Shown piece by piece: positions 5,401 to 43,700 of a stretch of DNA of 64,000 nucleotides (its first letter is position 1; every line of letters begins with the position of its first letter). Source of the stretch: Rhododendron vialii (Eukaryota; Streptophyta; Magnoliopsida; Ericales; Ericaceae); assembly GCF_030253575.1 (NCBI RefSeq), contig NC_080561.1:28928564-28992563 (forward strand), read 5' to 3'. The position numbers and the translations under genes were made by a program. The notes under the pieces are model-generated. The model had not been told where the DNA came from, did not search any database, and saw only the letters and a list, made by a program, of their open reading frames with translations.

Positions 5401-5989
5401 CAATTTGATTTTACTGAATTTCATTTTGGCAGGGTGTAATAAGTATTGGGCAGGACTAGAGGGTTAAAATGGGCCGAGTCGGCACGAGCACGGCACGTTT
5501 GAAGGAGGCACGGCATGGGCAAGACACGAGGGATGGAAAAACCAAAAAAAATATGTTATTAAATAAACAAGGGATTTCAGATTATAGTTTACTTTATTTC
5601 TGTGTATTTTTTGATAATCTAATAATTTATTAATCTTTTCCTTTTATTTAAGTAAAATAAGCTTTTAAAATATTTTATATGATTAAGAAATTTTGAATCA
5701 AAATTCAAACATGATAATATACCAATTACTACATATATACTGATATACACTGCGTTTTATCTAATAAATATTTTTAAAATAAAATACATAGAAAATAAAT
5801 AAGAAAAAAAACTAATTTTAATAAAAAATGGTTTTAAAAAAATAATCTCTATAGGGTTCGAACCCAAGTCCTTGGGGACTTGAAACACACATCTCAACCC
5901 ACCAAGGCCAATAATCTTTTTGTACTTATAAATGGAATAAGTAATATATATTATATAATTCTATTGTATAAAAATGAGACTATTGTACG

Positions 5990-6787
5990 GTAGCCATACA
6001 ATTGCGACACAACTATGACAATCCATATTGTTCATTTTGTTGTTCTTGGTGTTTTAATCACTTTTCGCATATTTTCGGGTCTATCGGGTTTTGAAAGCCC
6101 ATTCATTGGGACGTAGATTCATTAATATGAAATTTTTTGTTATGTTCGATCAAGTATATAACGATAACCAATTTACTTCATTTTTTGCACGAATTATATA
6201 ATCACTCCCACATAAAAAGGTAGATGGTTCCGATTTTAAAAAAATATCTTGGGCGACCCTTGAATGATGCATTATAGGACTTTAACGCCTTTGGAAGCAC
6301 CAAATGTGTTTCAATCACATAGTTTCCGACATCTGATTATCACCTATATAGGGGAGAATGATAAATTTGATAAGATCTTAAATCGTAACGGTTTAGATTG
6401 AACATTCGAAAAAATGAGTCTGCAGCTACTTTTCAAATCTATACATCCAACTTATTTTATTCTAAACTAATGTATTCTGCTATAGTCTAATGTAGGCTAG
6501 CCACACGATTGCGACACAACTATGACGATCCATACCGTTCATTTTGTTGTTCTTGGTGTTTTAATTACTCTCACAAATTTTCGGGTCTATCGGGTTTTGG
6601 AAGCCTTTTCAGCGGGACGTAGATTCATTAATAGGAATTTTTTTTATATGCGATCAAGTATATAACGATAACCAATTTACTTTATTTTTAGCACGAATGA
6701 TATAATCACTCTCACATAAAAAGGTAGACGGTTCCGATTTTAAAAAAACAACTCTAACGGCCCTTAAGTGATACATTATAGAACTTT
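5990..6787 (+). repeat. Pair of ~295-bp direct repeats inside CACTA
   Basis: The segment at about 5990-6284 is repeated at about 6497-6787 with scattered substitutions. Both contain TTCATTTTGTTGTTCTTGGT and CGATCAAGTATATAACGATA. A diverged 210-bp spacer separates them. No open frame is present. This is a local duplication of the CACTA interior or of an older unknown repeat. Confidence 0.8.
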
Positions 6788-6899
6788 ACGAGAATTTTTC
6801 TTTATTGAGTACGTATGGATTGTTGTGCTACTGTTGCACATTATGCGTTTTTAGTACACCTAAAAAATGGCTGTCTTTCAAATACAGCCGTTTTTAGGT

Positions 6900-17640: not shown

Positions 17641-17647
17641 TATATTA

Positions 17648-18173
17648 GGGCAAATTATAGTTACCCTCCTCTAATTATGCCTCGCGTACACTTACCCTCC
17701 TTTAACTTTTTTTTTTGGCACTTAACCCCTCAAACTAACGGAAATTCAAACGGTCATAAATTCAAACGGTCATAACTTCTTCATCCAAAATCGAAAATAT
17801 GCAAATTATATATCGATTTCGAGGTCTTGAAGTCAGCTTTCTAATGACACCAAAATCACATCACGATTCAAAGCACACAGAAAGTTATGATCAAAACGGT
17901 CTTTCTATCTACCAGCCCTTACTCTTTTGATCATAACTTTCTGTGTGCTTTGAATCGTGATGTGATTTTGGTGTCATTAGAAAGCTGACTTCAAGATCTC
18001 GAAATCGATATATAATTTGCATATTTTCGACTTTGTACGAAAAAGTTATGACCGTTTGCAGTTATGACCGTTTGAATTTCCGTTAGTTTAAGAGGATTAA
18101 GTGCCAAAAAAAAAGTTAGAGGGGGGTAAGTGTACGCGAGGCATAGTTAGAGGGGGGTAACTATAATTTGCCC
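17648..18173. mobile_element. Large fold-back MITE, 526 bp
   Basis: Two arms of about 250 bp (about 17648-17900 and 17925-18173) are near-perfect inverted copies starting GGGCAAATTATAGTTACCC. Only a short unpaired centre lies around 17901-17930. Flanks AATATATTA and AATATAATT are nearly the same 9 bp, suggesting a degraded MULE-type duplication. No coding capacity. A transcript would form a very long hairpin. Confidence 0.85.
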
Positions 18174-18288
18174 AATATAATTATTCGTTGATTCGGGCTT
18201 ATTTATCGGCCTAAAACTTCTGTATGCAAGAAGTCAAACTTATCACAATATGCCAATCAATAAGATCCTCCAATTAATTTTTTTTTTT

Positions 18289-21681: not shown

Positions 21682-22090
21682 TCAGTCATTTCCATCAGAG
21701 TCGTCATCAAAGATATATGCGAATGGAACTAAAGGTGCATTTCCAGTAGATTCGCCATCAATTCCCTCGGTGGTAATCCCGGGAGGTTTCCAGCCCAAAT
21801 GCTGCATGTATACTTTGTCGTAGGCATCAATATTCAATCCTGAAGCTAGAAACAGTTCTACCTCATCTACAAACCAATTGGTTCTTCCAGCTAAGAAAGG
21901 TCTCGCCGCTTGACATACCAAGGCCTTGAAAGTTTCTTCTTGTCTTTCCAGTGTACTTGGAGAGTTTTGGTGTTCGTTTCTCCTCAACGAGTCAATTACA
22001 CCAAGTATGTGATGGACGATAATCTCAATGTCTTCTACCTGGAGTAAAGCTTGAATTTCCCTCCTCAACCATCCTTGGAGCCACTGATTC

Positions 22091-22525
22091 TGATGTAGGA
22101 CAAAAATGGAGAGTTTTTGTATTTTATTTTCTTTGTTTTAGAATAAGATTTTGGTTAGGAATATTTCCGTTTAGGTTAGAATTATTAACTTTCCGTATTC
22201 GGTTTAATTTTGATTTTTACCTTTATTAGGATTCTTGGTCTATAAGAATTAAGATTTTATTTTAATTAATTAGGAAATATCTTTTATTTAATGCCGCTTG
22301 TTTTGGCATGATTTATTATTTCTTTTACAGTAGAATTTCTAGGGTTAGAGTCTTATAAAAAGGGCTGTAACCTATTCAATTATTAAACTTTTGTAGCTTT
22401 TTGATTAATAATATTGCAGAGATTTTCTCTTTCTTTCTTGTGCGCAAGATTTGCTCGTTGCGACGAGTTGTTTATCTCGTTTGGATTAGTACGCTAACTA
22501 ATCTCTCGTGAATTCCGCTGCGTCA
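22091..22525 (+). repeat. 5' LTR of the TR-GAG element (435 bp)
   Basis: Starts TGATGTAGG and ends GCTGCGTCA. Contains TATA-like TTATAAAAAG (22353-22362) and TTAATAATATTGC. It is the same length as, and apparently identical to, the copy at 24030-24464. Confidence 0.95.
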
Positions 22526-22527
22526 AG

Positions 22528-22539
22528 TGGTATCAGAGC
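22528..22539 (+). other. Primer binding site, initiator tRNA-Met
   Basis: TGGTATCAGAGC is an exact complement of the initiator tRNA-Met 3' end, two bases after the LTR. Confidence 0.9.
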
Positions 22540-22557
22540 AAGGCTTTGCCTGGTTCG

Positions 22558-24168
22558 ATGGCACCAAACAAAGTTGAAGACACACCCATTGACGTTCGTC
22601 GTGGTGAAGTATTTAACAAGACTCGCACCAAGGGATTTGCCCATGGTCAATCTGTTAAACGCAAAGTTGATAGGAACCGCGTTGAGGGATTTGCCCGCAA
22701 CCAACCTATTAATCAAAACGTCTCCAGAAGATATTCTTATTATCAACTTGATAGTGAGGATGAATCTGAAGACGAGTTATTTGAGGATTATTATGGATAT
22801 CAGTCGAATAAGCGACGCTCAAGGTTTGAAGGGTTTTATCACATAGATGACGACTTTTCAACTTTTCAGGTACAACCAATAATTCCTAGTTTTAATGGGT
22901 ATTGCCATCCTGAGAATTTAATTTATTGGTTTCGTAAAGTTGATAAGTTTCTTGAGTATATGGAAATTCCGGAAGAAAAGGAAGTTAGATACGTGACTTG
23001 TAAATTACAAGGCTATGCTTCTAGATGGTGGAAGCAATTGCAATATAATCGGGAGCGCCAGTATAAACAACCAGTCAAGACATGGCTCAGGATGAGACGA
23101 TTGATGAGTGATAGATTTCTTCAATCGCATTATGGTCAGATGTTATATGAAGAGTATCGAAGAAATCTTGAGTCCAAGCGATTATCCCGAGATAATCTTG
23201 AGTTGTCTTATTCTTTTTCAAGTAATAAAAATTATACCGTTGCGGCTACTGAAAACTCGAGAGACACATCACTGAGACTATTGGGTTCGGGTCACTCAAA
23301 GCGTCAACAAACCGATAAAAATCTTTCAATCTCAGATTCATCACGTTCCAGCTATTATGATGGATATGAAATCGCAGAAGAGGAAGGAGATCGAGTTGAA
23401 CTAGAGGAGGTGATATTTGTTGAGCCCAACATCGAAGAAACAGTGGAGGTCGATGTTGAATGCAGTCATTGTGGGCACATTGAAGCTGACGGTAAAGAGA
23501 AATTTGACCTTGGTATTAGCGAAAAAGAGGAAACTATAATTGAAGTTGATAATAAAAAAAATGGTATCGATGTTGGTGATCAAGTTGTTGGTGACCAAAA
23601 TAATTGTCCATTGGAGGTGGTTGATTCTAATATTAGTGTCAATGAGGAGATTTTGGTTAGCAACATTGACGAAAGTAAATTGGTGTCCAAAAAAGTAGAT
23701 TCAAAAGATTCAGCCAACGATCATGTCGAAGAATACATTCATAGAAAGGATTCAAAACATGATTGTGGGCAAAGCAGAATTAATGATGCTAATTTTGTCG
23801 ATTTTCTTGGTGTGCAACAATTTGATTGGGTTCCGAACATTCGTCTAATACATCTTGTTAACAAGTTGAAGTACGAAGAGAAAAGATCATTGCATAAATA
23901 CTTTTCTTTAAATGATTTTTGGAAGACGAACAAGAGGTTGAAGTATTCCAAATATCTATTTCTTTGGAATGGAAGGTGGCAAGTTTCTAATGAGAACTCG
24001 AGGTCGAGTTCTTTTGAAGAAAAGGAGACTGATGTAGGACAAAAATGGAGAGTTTTTGTATTTTATTTTCTTTGTTTTAGAATAAGATTTTGGTTAGGAA
24101 TATTTCCGTTTAGGTTAGAATTATTAACTTTCCGTATTCGGTTTAATTTTGATTTTTACCTTTATTAG
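22558..24168 (+). CDS. Retrotransposon gag protein (gag-only element)
   Basis: One 536-codon frame from the ATG at 22558, soon after the primer binding site. Residues about 105-205 hold the Ty3/gypsy-type gag core (IPSFNGYCHPENLIYWFRKV, LQGYASRWWKQL, WLRMRRLMSDRF). Residues about 235-440 are acidic and rich in E, D and S. I see no CCHC knuckle, protease, reverse transcriptase or integrase. A lone C-x2-C pair (CSHC) lies near residue 310. The frame runs through the purine tract into the 3' LTR and stops at 24168, so the last ~45 residues are LTR-encoded. It is expected to form virus-like particles that package the element's RNA with enzymes supplied in trans. Confidence 0.85.
   Translation: MAPNKVEDTPIDVRRGEVFNKTRTKGFAHGQSVKRKVDRNRVEGFARNQPINQNVSRRYSYYQLDSEDESEDELFEDYYGYQSNKRRSRFEGFYHIDDDFSTFQVQPIIPSFNGYCHPENLIYWFRKVDKFLEYMEIPEEKEVRYVTCKLQGYASRWWKQLQYNRERQYKQPVKTWLRMRRLMSDRFLQSHYGQMLYEEYRRNLESKRLSRDNLELSYSFSSNKNYTVAATENSRDTSLRLLGSGHSKRQQTDKNLSISDSSRSSYYDGYEIAEEEGDRVELEEVIFVEPNIEETVEVDVECSHCGHIEADGKEKFDLGISEKEETIIEVDNKKNGIDVGDQVVGDQNNCPLEVVDSNISVNEEILVSNIDESKLVSKKVDSKDSANDHVEEYIHRKDSKHDCGQSRINDANFVDFLGVQQFDWVPNIRLIHLVNKLKYEEKRSLHKYFSLNDFWKTNKRLKYSKYLFLWNGRWQVSNENSRSSSFEEKETDVGQKWRVFVFYFLCFRIRFWLGIFPFRLELLTFRIRFNFDFYLY
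24017..24029 (+). other. Polypurine tract of the TR-GAG element
   Basis: GAAGAAAAGGAGAC lies immediately before the second LTR, the expected position for plus-strand priming. Confidence 0.75.
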
Positions 24169-24464
24169 GATTCTTGGTCTATAAGAATTAAGATTTTATT
24201 TTAATTAATTAGGAAATATCTTTTATTTAATGCCGCTTGTTTTGGCATGATTTATTATTTCTTTTACAGTAGAATTTCTAGGGTTAGAGTCTTATAAAAA
24301 GGGCTGTAACCTATTCAATTATTAAACTTTTGTAGCTTTTTGATTAATAATATTGCAGAGATTTTCTCTTTCTTTCTTGTGCGCAAGATTTGCTCGTTGC
24401 GACGAGTTGTTTATCTCGTTTGGATTAGTACGCTAACTAATCTCTCGTGAATTCCGCTGCGTCA
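24030..24464 (+). repeat. Second LTR of the TR-GAG element (435 bp)
   Basis: Same length and apparently the same sequence as 22091-22525. Unlike a normal element, it is not the terminus: about 97 bp of element sequence follow it. Confidence 0.95.
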
Positions 24465-24561
24465 AGTGGTATCAAAGCAAGGCTTTGCCTGGTTCGATGG
24501 CACCAAACAAAGTTGAAGACAAAATAAAATAAAAAAAACTCTCCATTTTTGTCCTACATCA
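24465..24561. repeat. Extra primer-site segment plus inverted LTR start
   Basis: 24465-24520 repeats the primer binding site (one change, TGGTATCAAAGC) and the first gag codons as at 22526-22581. 24521-24561 is the reverse complement of the first 41 bp of the LTR with one substitution. It supplies the right-hand end that was joined to the host DNA. Confidence 0.9.
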
Positions 24562-24955
24562 GATTCGGCTGAAAATACTTGCGCGACTTCCTATACCGTG
24601 GTACCTGGAACGCATTGATTAAGCTATCTGGTTCGGTATAGTAGCACTGTAGCCTATATTTGTGAGCTTCTGAAAAGAAAGCACTACTTGCGAAATCTCG
24701 ATTGATATAATGTCGACGAAAAGAATTCCCATCATAGCCATGTATGACAGAAAAATTCTCTGTCCAGCATAGAGGACACTTTACAGAGGAAGAAGGCTGG
24801 CGAGAATGCTTGCCAGCAACCACTTTGGCCCAACGCACAATGCAATTGTAGCAGAAGTTGTGGAAGCAATTATCCAAATAGGATTCTTGAAGAAAAGGTC
24901 CGAGGCAGATAGGGCAAGGGCTCGAAGTAGAGCCGCTGCCCTTATCTTCAGCCAT

Positions 24956-40700: not shown

Positions 40701-43700
40701 ATTTTAAGACATGCAACACAACCCAAAGACAAATAGTCAAATAGTGAGCCACAAGTAACAAGGTCCATAACATTAGAAAAAGTTAGATCAGAAAAAGATC
40801 CACAAACAAGCAGAAGTCTGCTTACAAAGGTTGATTAGCCATAACTGACTCAATACAAGGTAGAGAGAAGAGACCATGAAAATCAACCAGAAAATAACAC
40901 TTCCATAAGACAAATAATATCTTGATTTTACTGGCTTCTGTAATGAGCCATACCTTCGCAAGGATGTTGTTGAGGAGGTTGTTGTGGTGAATTTTTGAAT
41001 CCAAATTCTGACAAAGACAAACAAGATCTTGTTATTGCAATGGAAAAAGGAGGGTGCGAACCAACCATGCCTAATTGACTGCAACATAATTACATTCAGT
41101 CTACCATTATATCATTAACTGCACCAAAAAAACCTACATATTTAAAGGAAGAAGCTGTTTACTGAAACAAAAAGACATCAGTTTCTGCAACAATTTGAAG
41201 CAAGGTCACTGGCTAATACAAAATTTCACAGGAATGCATGAGACATGAAATTGAATTGAAAGAACAATGGAAGGTGTAGTAAGTGAAGGTTTAACATGAG
41301 TACGAAGGAATAAGCTTCAGAATGCCCATCGTTGACCTAGATTAATACCAGAACTCAACTGTAGAATGAAAGAATTCAAATTTCTAACACATTATGTTCA
41401 GAATAGAGTCGAAATATGGATATTTGCATTTTCAAAGTAATTTTCTGCCCGATATATATCCACCCACATGGATTCCAGAACTATATACAAGTGTAAGCAT
41501 GCATGTGCATGTGTTTAAACCAAACCCTATAATGCCAACTCCTAGAAATTCTAATCTCACTGCAATAATTTATGAATAAGAATCTGACATCGAAAAATAC
41601 AGAAACAATCGCAAAAACATAGAGAAGATTGAAAGATCCCAGCCATTTTTATACGTTATTTAGGTTCCCAAAATACAAATAGCAATTGAATATAGTGTAA
41701 ACACCAAAAGAATCTTACATTCGGTGAATTACGCCGTGTAGTTGCGCTGACCAGAGTTATACCCTTAGTATTGTCATAGACAGGTGGCTTCCATTCAGCG
41801 AGAACTGCATTTTTACAAAACATACAATGATTGTACCATAAGAAAGTTGGTTGTAAGCATAAAGGGAAAAAATAAAAGGAGAAAGACGGTGCTCTGCATC
41901 TAAAAACAATAAAAGAAGAGAGAGCACAAAAATTGGAATAAAATTCTTGTTATTCATCTTTTTGACAACATCAACCTGACAAAGTATATATGTCACTACC
42001 AGCTCTTGCTACCATGATAGTTTCGCAGATAAGGATACTGGTAATTTGTCATCTCAAGTCACACCTGCTATCTCTTTCATATATTCTCAAGATAATAAAG
42101 ATAAAACATGCTAGTGCTATTCACTCTGTCAAGGAAGTGAACTATGATTACACTGCCATAAGCTTTTCATAAATCCAGTGGTCGAAGTACGGTGTAATAT
42201 GCTTACATTACTTCAGGATCCATGCTTTCATTCCTGATACTTCAGCAAGCTTAGATGCAAGATGCGCTGGCGGTTAAAACAATTCAGCAGGGATGCTCAT
42301 TACAATTTCAGCTAGATTTCTTGCTCTATTTGGAAGTACAACCAATTGGATATTGAAAAATAAGGCGCTCCCCAAAACCCAATGACTTTACTAGCATTAA
42401 TTTGTGGTCTCTGATACTAAAGAGTTTATTGGACTTCCTTGCGTTATGTTTGAGGTATAGCTTATATTTACGTGATTGTTACATCAACTACATCTAATCC
42501 ATCATCTTTGCCTTCCAATAACGTGTTTTGATCCCTACAGGCTACAACCACCAATAACATTTTTGAGAGAGGACAAGGTGAGCAAGTCAGTTTAGAGAAA
42601 ACACTACGTCAAATAATGCCACAATCTTTCCCTCCCAGTTGTTATTACATGTGCAAATGATAAGCAGAACATCGGATATGCAGTACAGAGATGAGTCTTA
42701 ATATTATAATGGATGGCTCACCCCTTACAAGTTTAAGCTTTTAAGTGGGTCTGAGTTCATTCAGACCAAGTGATATGGTGCAGACTCTGCAGTTCCCCAG
42801 TAGATAAGGCCTTATGCATGTAAGGGTGGATCTAGACAGAGAACAATTTCCCAACAATGGTATCAAAGCCTGTGGTTGACGACCCAAGGGTGGACTCTCC
42901 TGGCCCTGGAAACCATGAGTGGGCTTGCATGGAGAACTTTCAATGGAGTGGGAAAAAAAATCAAAGAATTAAGAGGCCTCATTAAACGGTTGCAATTCGT
43001 CCAACAGTTCATATGTAAACATTCCAAAAATCCAAGGTAACTCTCGACGGAGCAATGGTGGAGGCGGACGGGTAAGCCTGTGGCAAGGTGAATCTAGATA
43101 GAGTGATGGATGGCTCTTGATTGATGGAGTAGGTTTGGTGGATAAGCCTAATTCAAAAATTGCGTTGGAGAATAACAAATCAGTATCAAGGGAGAGTTTG
43201 GATGCCAAGGGGATCAAGGCCCAATGAATGGAGCCCAATGTACGGTTACAAATGAGGGGGAGATTGTTAGGACACGTGTGACTGTCAAGTCCCACATCAG
43301 ATGAATAGAATAAAGTTGAGTCATATTAAATTATCACATGGCTCACCACTTACAGGCTTAAGCTTTTAAGTGTGTTTGAGTTCGTTCGGCCCCAGTGATA
43401 TGGTGCAGACTCTACAGTTTTTCCCCAATGGATTGGGCCTCATGAATTCAAGGGCAGATCAATAGTGAATACAAACTCCCAACACCAGTCCCAATACTCT
43501 CGCTCACGATTGACAAGGACCAGGACAATGATATGTCCTCTATGGATATGAGAAGTGGGGGAAAGGCCAAGTCTGGAGAGAGAAATATGGGAAATCCTTT
43601 GCACGATACAAAGAAATGAAGCAGCAGTATTGGGGAAACTAGTAGGTTGCTTTTTTATTGTCTCTCCCACGAAAGTCCAGTGAGCAGTCTGCATTTTATG

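Follow-up and report, generated by a model that had tools for sequence, protein, structure and literature searches.

A gag-only LTR retrotransposon with a U3 terminus at each end, and its counterparts in the Rhododendron vialii genome

An interrupted RING-protein exon

The window, by which we mean the whole stretch of 64,000 nucleotides of Rhododendron vialii DNA analysed here, carries on its minus strand an interrupted coding exon of a RING/Topors-like protein. Homologue alignment and reading frame place the 5' part of this exon, with the RING finger, at 24567-24955, and the 3' part at 21682-22085. Between them lies a gag-only LTR retrotransposon (22091-24561), for which base-by-base reading gives U3 at both outer ends (TGATG on the left, CATCA on the right). 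As the initial annotation had claimed, a 5-bp target-site duplication, GATTC, stands directly outside these ends (22086-22090 and 24562-24566), and the flanks fused with a single GATTC give a continuous reading frame of the RING protein. A total of 282 homologues of this protein were found, 120 were listed, of which the best matches are from Rhododendron, and seven were aligned; five of the seven are collinear across the insertion site and two (P0019 and P0023) are gapped there.

The left LTR, delimited by sequence comparison, occupies 22091-22525 on the plus strand (435 bp, TGATG...CGTCA), with a TATA box at its position 264. It is followed by a primer-binding site, TGGTATCAGAGC (22528-22539), which we take to be of the initiator-Met tRNA type; no tRNA gene was found in the window by ARAGORN in its bacterial setting. 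The gag reading frame runs on the plus strand from 22558 to 24168. Within its 491 residues up to the LTR, PF03732 covers residues 145-196 (E 1.8e-5); the profile search found no pol domain, PF03732 being the only Pfam family with an E of 1 or lower. The frame continues across the polypurine tract, recognized by eye (GAAGAAAAGGAGAC, 24016-24029), into the U3 of the second LTR (24030-24464), which is also 435 bp long and shows 0/435 differences from the left one. After this LTR, AG, a primer site of the TGGTATCAAAGC variant and the first gag codons occur for a second time, as 57 bp (24465-24521) that align to the left copy with a single difference, G/A within the primer site. The element is closed by the first 40 bp of U3 in inverted, minus-strand orientation (24522-24561), which provide the second U3 terminus. 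Once reverse-complemented, this arm differs from U3 1-40 by a substitution and an extra A in an A-run, and a search within the window by BLAST gives its match to the LTR start an E of 9e-12; if no gap is allowed, the mismatches number 5/40. The order described by the initial annotation, namely a second LTR, a second primer-site copy, the first gag codons and an inverted LTR start, is thus confirmed at 24030-24561, with an inverted copy of 40 bp.

TR-GAG elements are gag-only plant LTR retrotransposons that have two LTRs, a tRNA primer site and a purine tract, and lack pol. The window element shares with them near-identical LTRs, a primer site, a purine tract and a 5-bp duplication, as well as a gag domain in the absence of pol domains. 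It differs from them in its U3/U3 outer ends, while a canonical integrase insertion is bounded by U3 on one side and by U5 on the other. Among the 7995 candidate proteins sharing most words, we found 14 gag-like proteins, from Rhododendron and Vaccinium. Read-through from gag across the purine tract into U3 also occurs in P0001, P0002 and P0004 (three of the five aligned relatives), and because these proteins read through likewise, the gag-only structure looks like a family trait.

Other repeats are present in the window as well. Direct repeats of about 117 bp (82%) bound 42713-43454, with TGGTATCAAAGCC at 42858 just beyond the left repeat, and this may be a small TRIM element. At 17641-18182 some 540 bp form a foldback with 90% self-complementarity, and a pair of direct repeats of about 308 bp (87%) is found at 5977-6284 and 6484-6788, 200 bp apart.

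U3/U3 insertions elsewhere in the genome

The genome searched comprised 532.6 Mb in 13 contigs. A search with the full element gave 155 matches, and 40 of the 615 first-look candidates were scored. Besides the window, 13 rows of this search span the element from position 1 to 2374-2376; in twelve the copy is ordinary and stops at U5, the thirteenth (C6:9372919) belongs to the U3/U3 insertion L009, and no other row starting at 1 extends beyond 2376. Fetched copies were annotated against the window LTR and internal region. With up to three mismatches, the U3-start pattern occurs at 367 places, 100 of them listed, and its reversed control at 3. Exact U3 starts were obtained as complete lists, 23 flanked by A and 70 by G or T, that is 93 not flanked by C. 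Sixteen of these 93, some of which are inner rather than outer starts, fall in eight duplication-flanked U3/U3 insertions (L009, L011, L012, L043, L044, L061, L062 and L066). All 23 A-flanked starts were read, and four of them lie in such insertions (L012, L043, L061 and L062); the 70 G/T-flanked starts were read where fetched. The window element and L045 are C-flanked and hence stand outside the count of 93.

Altogether, 11 joined outward U3 pairs of the window family were read, and 10 of the 11 have a perfect 5-bp duplication. In addition to the window element, these are L009 (C6:9372140-9375287, AGATG), L011 (C8:25479969-25483121, AAGTG), L012 (C13:15931855-15934505, CATGA), L043 (C2:1399768-1402277, TAACT), L044 (C3:31973209-31975857, CATGT), L045 (C5:35353242-35356964, GAAAC), L061 (C10:8831418-8831865, an LTR-only insertion of 448 bp, TCAAG), L062 (C10:17891150-17893534, TAAAT) and L066 (C9:5660807-5668083, AAATT). 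The failing case is L046 (C7:2531160-2531798), an LTR joined through AGTG to an inverted LTR 1-202, with flanks ACAAT/GTTGT that agree at 1/5 positions. For ordinary U3/U5 copies the duplication matches 5/5 in 37 of 43, 4/5 in five and 3/5 in one; L014 (both copies), L019, L023, L029, L030 (the same copy as L048), L039, L040/L041 and L056 were left out of the 43 because an end is missing or irregular. Flanks paired across loci as a control match 5/5 in 13/2862.

Several irregular structures were seen alongside these pairs. L066 is a 7.3-kb palindromic composite, in which several pieces of LTR and internal sequence, running in both directions, are enclosed by a single AAATT duplication. L017 (C5:11080591-11086550) has three gag-only units head to tail plus a partial LTR within one CTGTA duplication, a concatemer with ordinary ends, and L013 (C13:32960689-32963440) has normal ends and a CAATT duplication around an inverted internal segment (internal 1166-1402). 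Two candidates for U3/U3 insertions were rejected: the L014 pair consists of two separate copies with flanks matching 0/5, and L056 is a truncated LTR plus a short inverted piece, its other end being without U3.

Some loci (L040/L041 and L029/L042) carry LTRs with a different U3, TGATGTAGAACACGTGG, and an R-U5 resembling that of the window family. An exact search for this U3 gave 120 places, 100 of them listed, and among the matches listed outward pairs within 10 kb occur at two places. One of them, L067 (C6:22357029-22362355), is a U3/U3 insertion of this related family, with CATTC on both sides and breakpoints at LTR 55 and 124; the other, L068, was rejected, as it consists of two solo LTRs, each with its own duplication (pair AGTAT/ACCCT). 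At L040 a pol frame stands next to gag-only sequence. It encodes reverse transcriptase, RNase H and integrase domains (RVT_1, RT_RNaseH, Integrase_H2C2 and rve, in that order), and an element of this Ty3/gypsy type would be a candidate partner for mobilising the window element. The L040/L041 composite bears the LTR ends of the related family; from this composite we infer that the related family has pol content. The composite itself (C7:4633212-4646298, 13 kb) contains an inverted gypsy-type pol frame between ordinary U3/U5 ends with GAAAC twice, which suggests recombination between two related families; despite its inverted parts, these ordinary ends led us to reject it as a U3/U3 insertion.

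Integration through two U3 ends, as proposed by the initial annotation, is therefore supported in the window as well as in ten insertions elsewhere, each with a perfect 5-bp duplication. The more specific expectations were borne out in part. The exact order of LTR, primer site, gag start and inverted U3 was seen only in the window among the loci read, while the wider class of U3/U3 insertions with a duplication does recur. The insertions do not represent a single propagating type: since the inner junctions mostly differ, they are mostly independent events, and L067 shows that they are not confined to the gag-only family.

The opposite arrangement was searched for as well. A U5-end pattern not followed by A, which also matches the related family, occurs at 135 places, and no U5/U5 insertion was found among the 100 listed, at least one of which (L043) is an inner junction. 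One minus-then-plus U5 pair lies within 10 kb (C4:15387168/15391047, L065) and was rejected as a U5/U5 insertion, since it consists of an ordinary copy and, 1.6 kb away, a 127-bp fragment of an LTR.

Inner junctions and the origin of the arms

We counted breakpoints along each arm from its U3 end, the LTR being 1-435 and positions beyond U5 starting at 436, with breakpoints in a second LTR expressed as LTR positions. The two arms break at 492/40 in the window, 437/350 in L009, 437/740 in L011 (with a 31-bp filler), 1929/292 in L012 (6-bp filler), 435/222 in L043, 442/410 in L044, 442/402 in L045 (7-bp filler), 439/202 in L046, 407/44 in L061 and 437/147 in L062. L066 switches several times, in part within the LTR, and its central switch joins LTR 147 and 165. 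One partner falls at 435-492, the zone of the boundary between U5 and primer site, in 8/11 simple junctions when L067 is included and in 8/10 without it; this zone was chosen after seeing the data, and any probability attached to the clustering is illustrative only. Relative to the U5 end, the break is at +0 in L043, at +2 (AG) in L009, L011 and L062, at +4 (AGTG) in L046, at +5 to +7 (AGTGGTA) in L044 and L045, and at +57 in the window, so that L044 and L045 retain up to five primer-site bases past U5. The boundary break sits on the shorter arm in L044 and L045 and on the longer arm elsewhere. The shorter arm is no longer than 442 bp, the LTR plus 7 bp, in nine of ten junctions, and lies within the LTR itself in seven; that of L011 extends into gag.

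Some breakpoints recur, namely LTR 350 (L009 and L010), 40-44 (window and L061) and 147 (L062 and L066), as does a four-base microhomology, CAAG, at L009, L010 and L062; the window junction has a microhomology of only about 1 nt. L009 also contains LTR-AGAC-LTR, with the AG that precedes the primer site and the AC that follows the purine tract, and AGAC is the sequence that would be expected from two unprocessed cDNA ends.

The arms were compared with the LTRs of their own insertion in L009, L011, L012, L043, L044, L045 and L046, and most of them are nearly identical to one of these LTRs. Differences number 0 and 1/433 in L011, 0 and 1/222 in L043, 0/441 in L045, 0/202 in L046, 1/263 in L012, and 3 and 5/347 in L009; the outer LTRs of L044 differ by 14/433. 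Other copies of the family are mostly 3-8% from the window LTR, and the LTR pair within one ordinary copy diverges by 0-3.2% (20 copies).

Primer-site variants were counted in 56 sites (AGAGC 43, AAAGC 12, TAAGC 1), a count which omits five overlapping loci; as both L030 and L048 are among these, it is short of one AAAGC copy. In the window element the left site reads AGAGC and the tail site AAAGC. Because this G/A difference is a common polymorphism of the family, the tail and the left end of the window element were probably copied from different templates. In L011 the long arm has an RNA-type primer site and the short-arm site matches the tRNA over 18-19 nt; L026, an ordinary copy, carries a downstream primer-site variant similar to that of the L011 short arm.

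How the second U3 end may arise, and what it would mean

The series of differing U3/U3 insertions points to a slip that recurs during the copying of RNA into DNA. We think it probable that a misdirected plus-strand transfer makes a U3/U3 cDNA before integration, and that an integrase acting in trans then inserts it. The 3' end of the plus strand, at or just past the boundary of U5 and primer site, where the second-strand transfer usually takes place, would find a wrong partner, namely the plus-sense strand of the same or of a sister cDNA. This strand would be copied back to its 5' end, mostly over part of one LTR, and in L044 and L045 over the full length of the element, starting from within the second LTR. 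As the 5' end of the partner would be fixed at TGATG by the polypurine-tract cut, the result would be a gag-only cDNA with a U3 terminus at each end, and the supplied integrase would join both to the target. Either the reverse transcriptase or an alternative end-joining polymerase of the host might perform the switch; according to a review, second-strand transfer involves alternative end-joining factors that use microhomology at the primer site (PMC12786077). In this scheme, what we infer is the intermediate, the polarity of the strands and the integrase that acted. A misdirected transfer would account for the exact outer end, for the shorter arm being limited to the LTR plus 7 bp in 9/10 junctions and for U5/U5 insertions being unseen. 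The clustering of one breakpoint at this boundary, the recurring CAAG and the close agreement of most compared arms with an LTR of their own insertion also favour it. It does not fit every locus, since L012, L061 and L067 are without a partner at the boundary of U5 and primer site and L066 has inner switches. The unlike arms of L044, the shorter arm of L011 that extends into gag, the microhomology of about 1 nt in the window and the fillers also speak against it.

One alternative is that the host joins finished linear cDNAs or their pieces tail to tail, a U5 end meeting another U5 or a broken LTR, and that the product integrates normally through its outer U3s, which we regard as a possible but rather unlikely origin. 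The U5 ends of L009, L011 and L062 do look unprocessed, with their AG, the LTR-AGAC-LTR junction of L009 resembles that of a two-LTR circle, microhomology and fillers occur at the junctions (the fillers of L011, L012 and L045 equally fit plain end joining), and L012, L061 and L067 break away from U5. However, head-to-head joins should also yield U5/U5 products, and none was found among the 100 listed of 135 matches. Primer-site bases should be absent from finished linear cDNA, yet they are present at the junctions of L044, L045, L046 and the window. Moreover, a broken cDNA could be cut anywhere, and nonetheless the shorter arm exceeds 442 bp in only one of ten junctions.

That the inverted end was produced by integrase-mediated self-integration seems very unlikely to us. 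Known products of self-integration are circular. The process is known for retroelement cDNA (PMC2644782), and in L009, L010 and L062 the U5 CA, at its exact position, abuts sequence from within an LTR; these joins can equally be read as the CAAG microhomology, which includes the AG of an unprocessed end, so that the attachment of a processed CA-3' end at an internal site is ambiguous there. Such an attachment is not found in the window, where both partners break away from the LTR termini. The initial annotation had named template switching of the cDNA or self-integration before integration as a source; switching or joining is supported, while self-integration is unsupported for the window copy, whose inner junction is away from any LTR terminus, one partner breaking 57 bp beyond U5 and the other 40 bp into U3.

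A rearrangement after integration, in which normal insertions were later recombined, inverted or converted, is highly improbable: neighbouring copies of the family do occur (L014, L068), yet such independent neighbours share no duplication, whereas ten of the 11 joined U3 pairs do so at 5/5 positions. Neighbouring or nested insertions likewise rank low as an explanation. Inverted repeats are prone to misassembly and the structures are known here from the assembly, but an artefact is hardly credible and assembly error is disfavoured at these loci because of their recurrence and intact duplications, perfect ones standing directly outside both U3 ends at ten family loci and the host frame of the window being continuous over the joined flanks.

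Complex LTR insertions produced by wrong template choice during reverse transcription are already known (Sabot and Schulman 2007, PMC1950507). Those complexes likewise have 5-bp duplications, extra LTR or internal sequence and outer LTRs that are alike, and the window element resembles them in that one duplication encloses a single composite whose LTRs are alike. They differ in consisting of two elements that share a third LTR, in four named cases, and neither inverted parts nor U3/U3 ends are mentioned for them (PMC1950507), whereas the window element has one core, two LTRs and an inverted extra piece between outer U3 ends. In maize, 'two inverted TRIMs' of Zma-SMART with the duplication CTTCA have been reported, the array structures being verified by PCR and sequencing (Gao et al. 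2016, PMC4717578). This too is an inverted composite of a short retroelement within one 5-bp duplication; it is a single example in a figure legend, where its U3/U5 end type, mechanism and frequency are left unstated. Self-integration products and two-LTR circles are alike in the aberrant joining of cDNA ends (PMC12786077), but the products described here are integrated with target duplications. No description of U3/U3 integration was found in open PubMed Central titles and abstract beginnings, and the U3/U3 series, its frequency and the bias of U3 over U5 were not found in the literature searched.

Tentatively, double-U3 cDNA might be a regular by-product in this lineage. If so, plus-strand transfer would have a built-in failure that goes in one direction, the integrase of the lineage would readily pair two U3 ends, and LTR-only products, such as the 448 bp of L061, would enter the genome as short palindromic elements of a new kind. 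For retroviruses, integration is held to need integrase action on both a U3 and a U5 end (PMC11054761). The present insertions, a natural U3/U3 series with correct duplications, indicate that the integrase of a plant retrotransposon acts in vivo on a pair of U3 ends. Their junctions would be fossil traces of intermediates in second-strand transfer, which is otherwise difficult to observe. The insertions also supply genes with new inverted repeats, as here within a coding exon.
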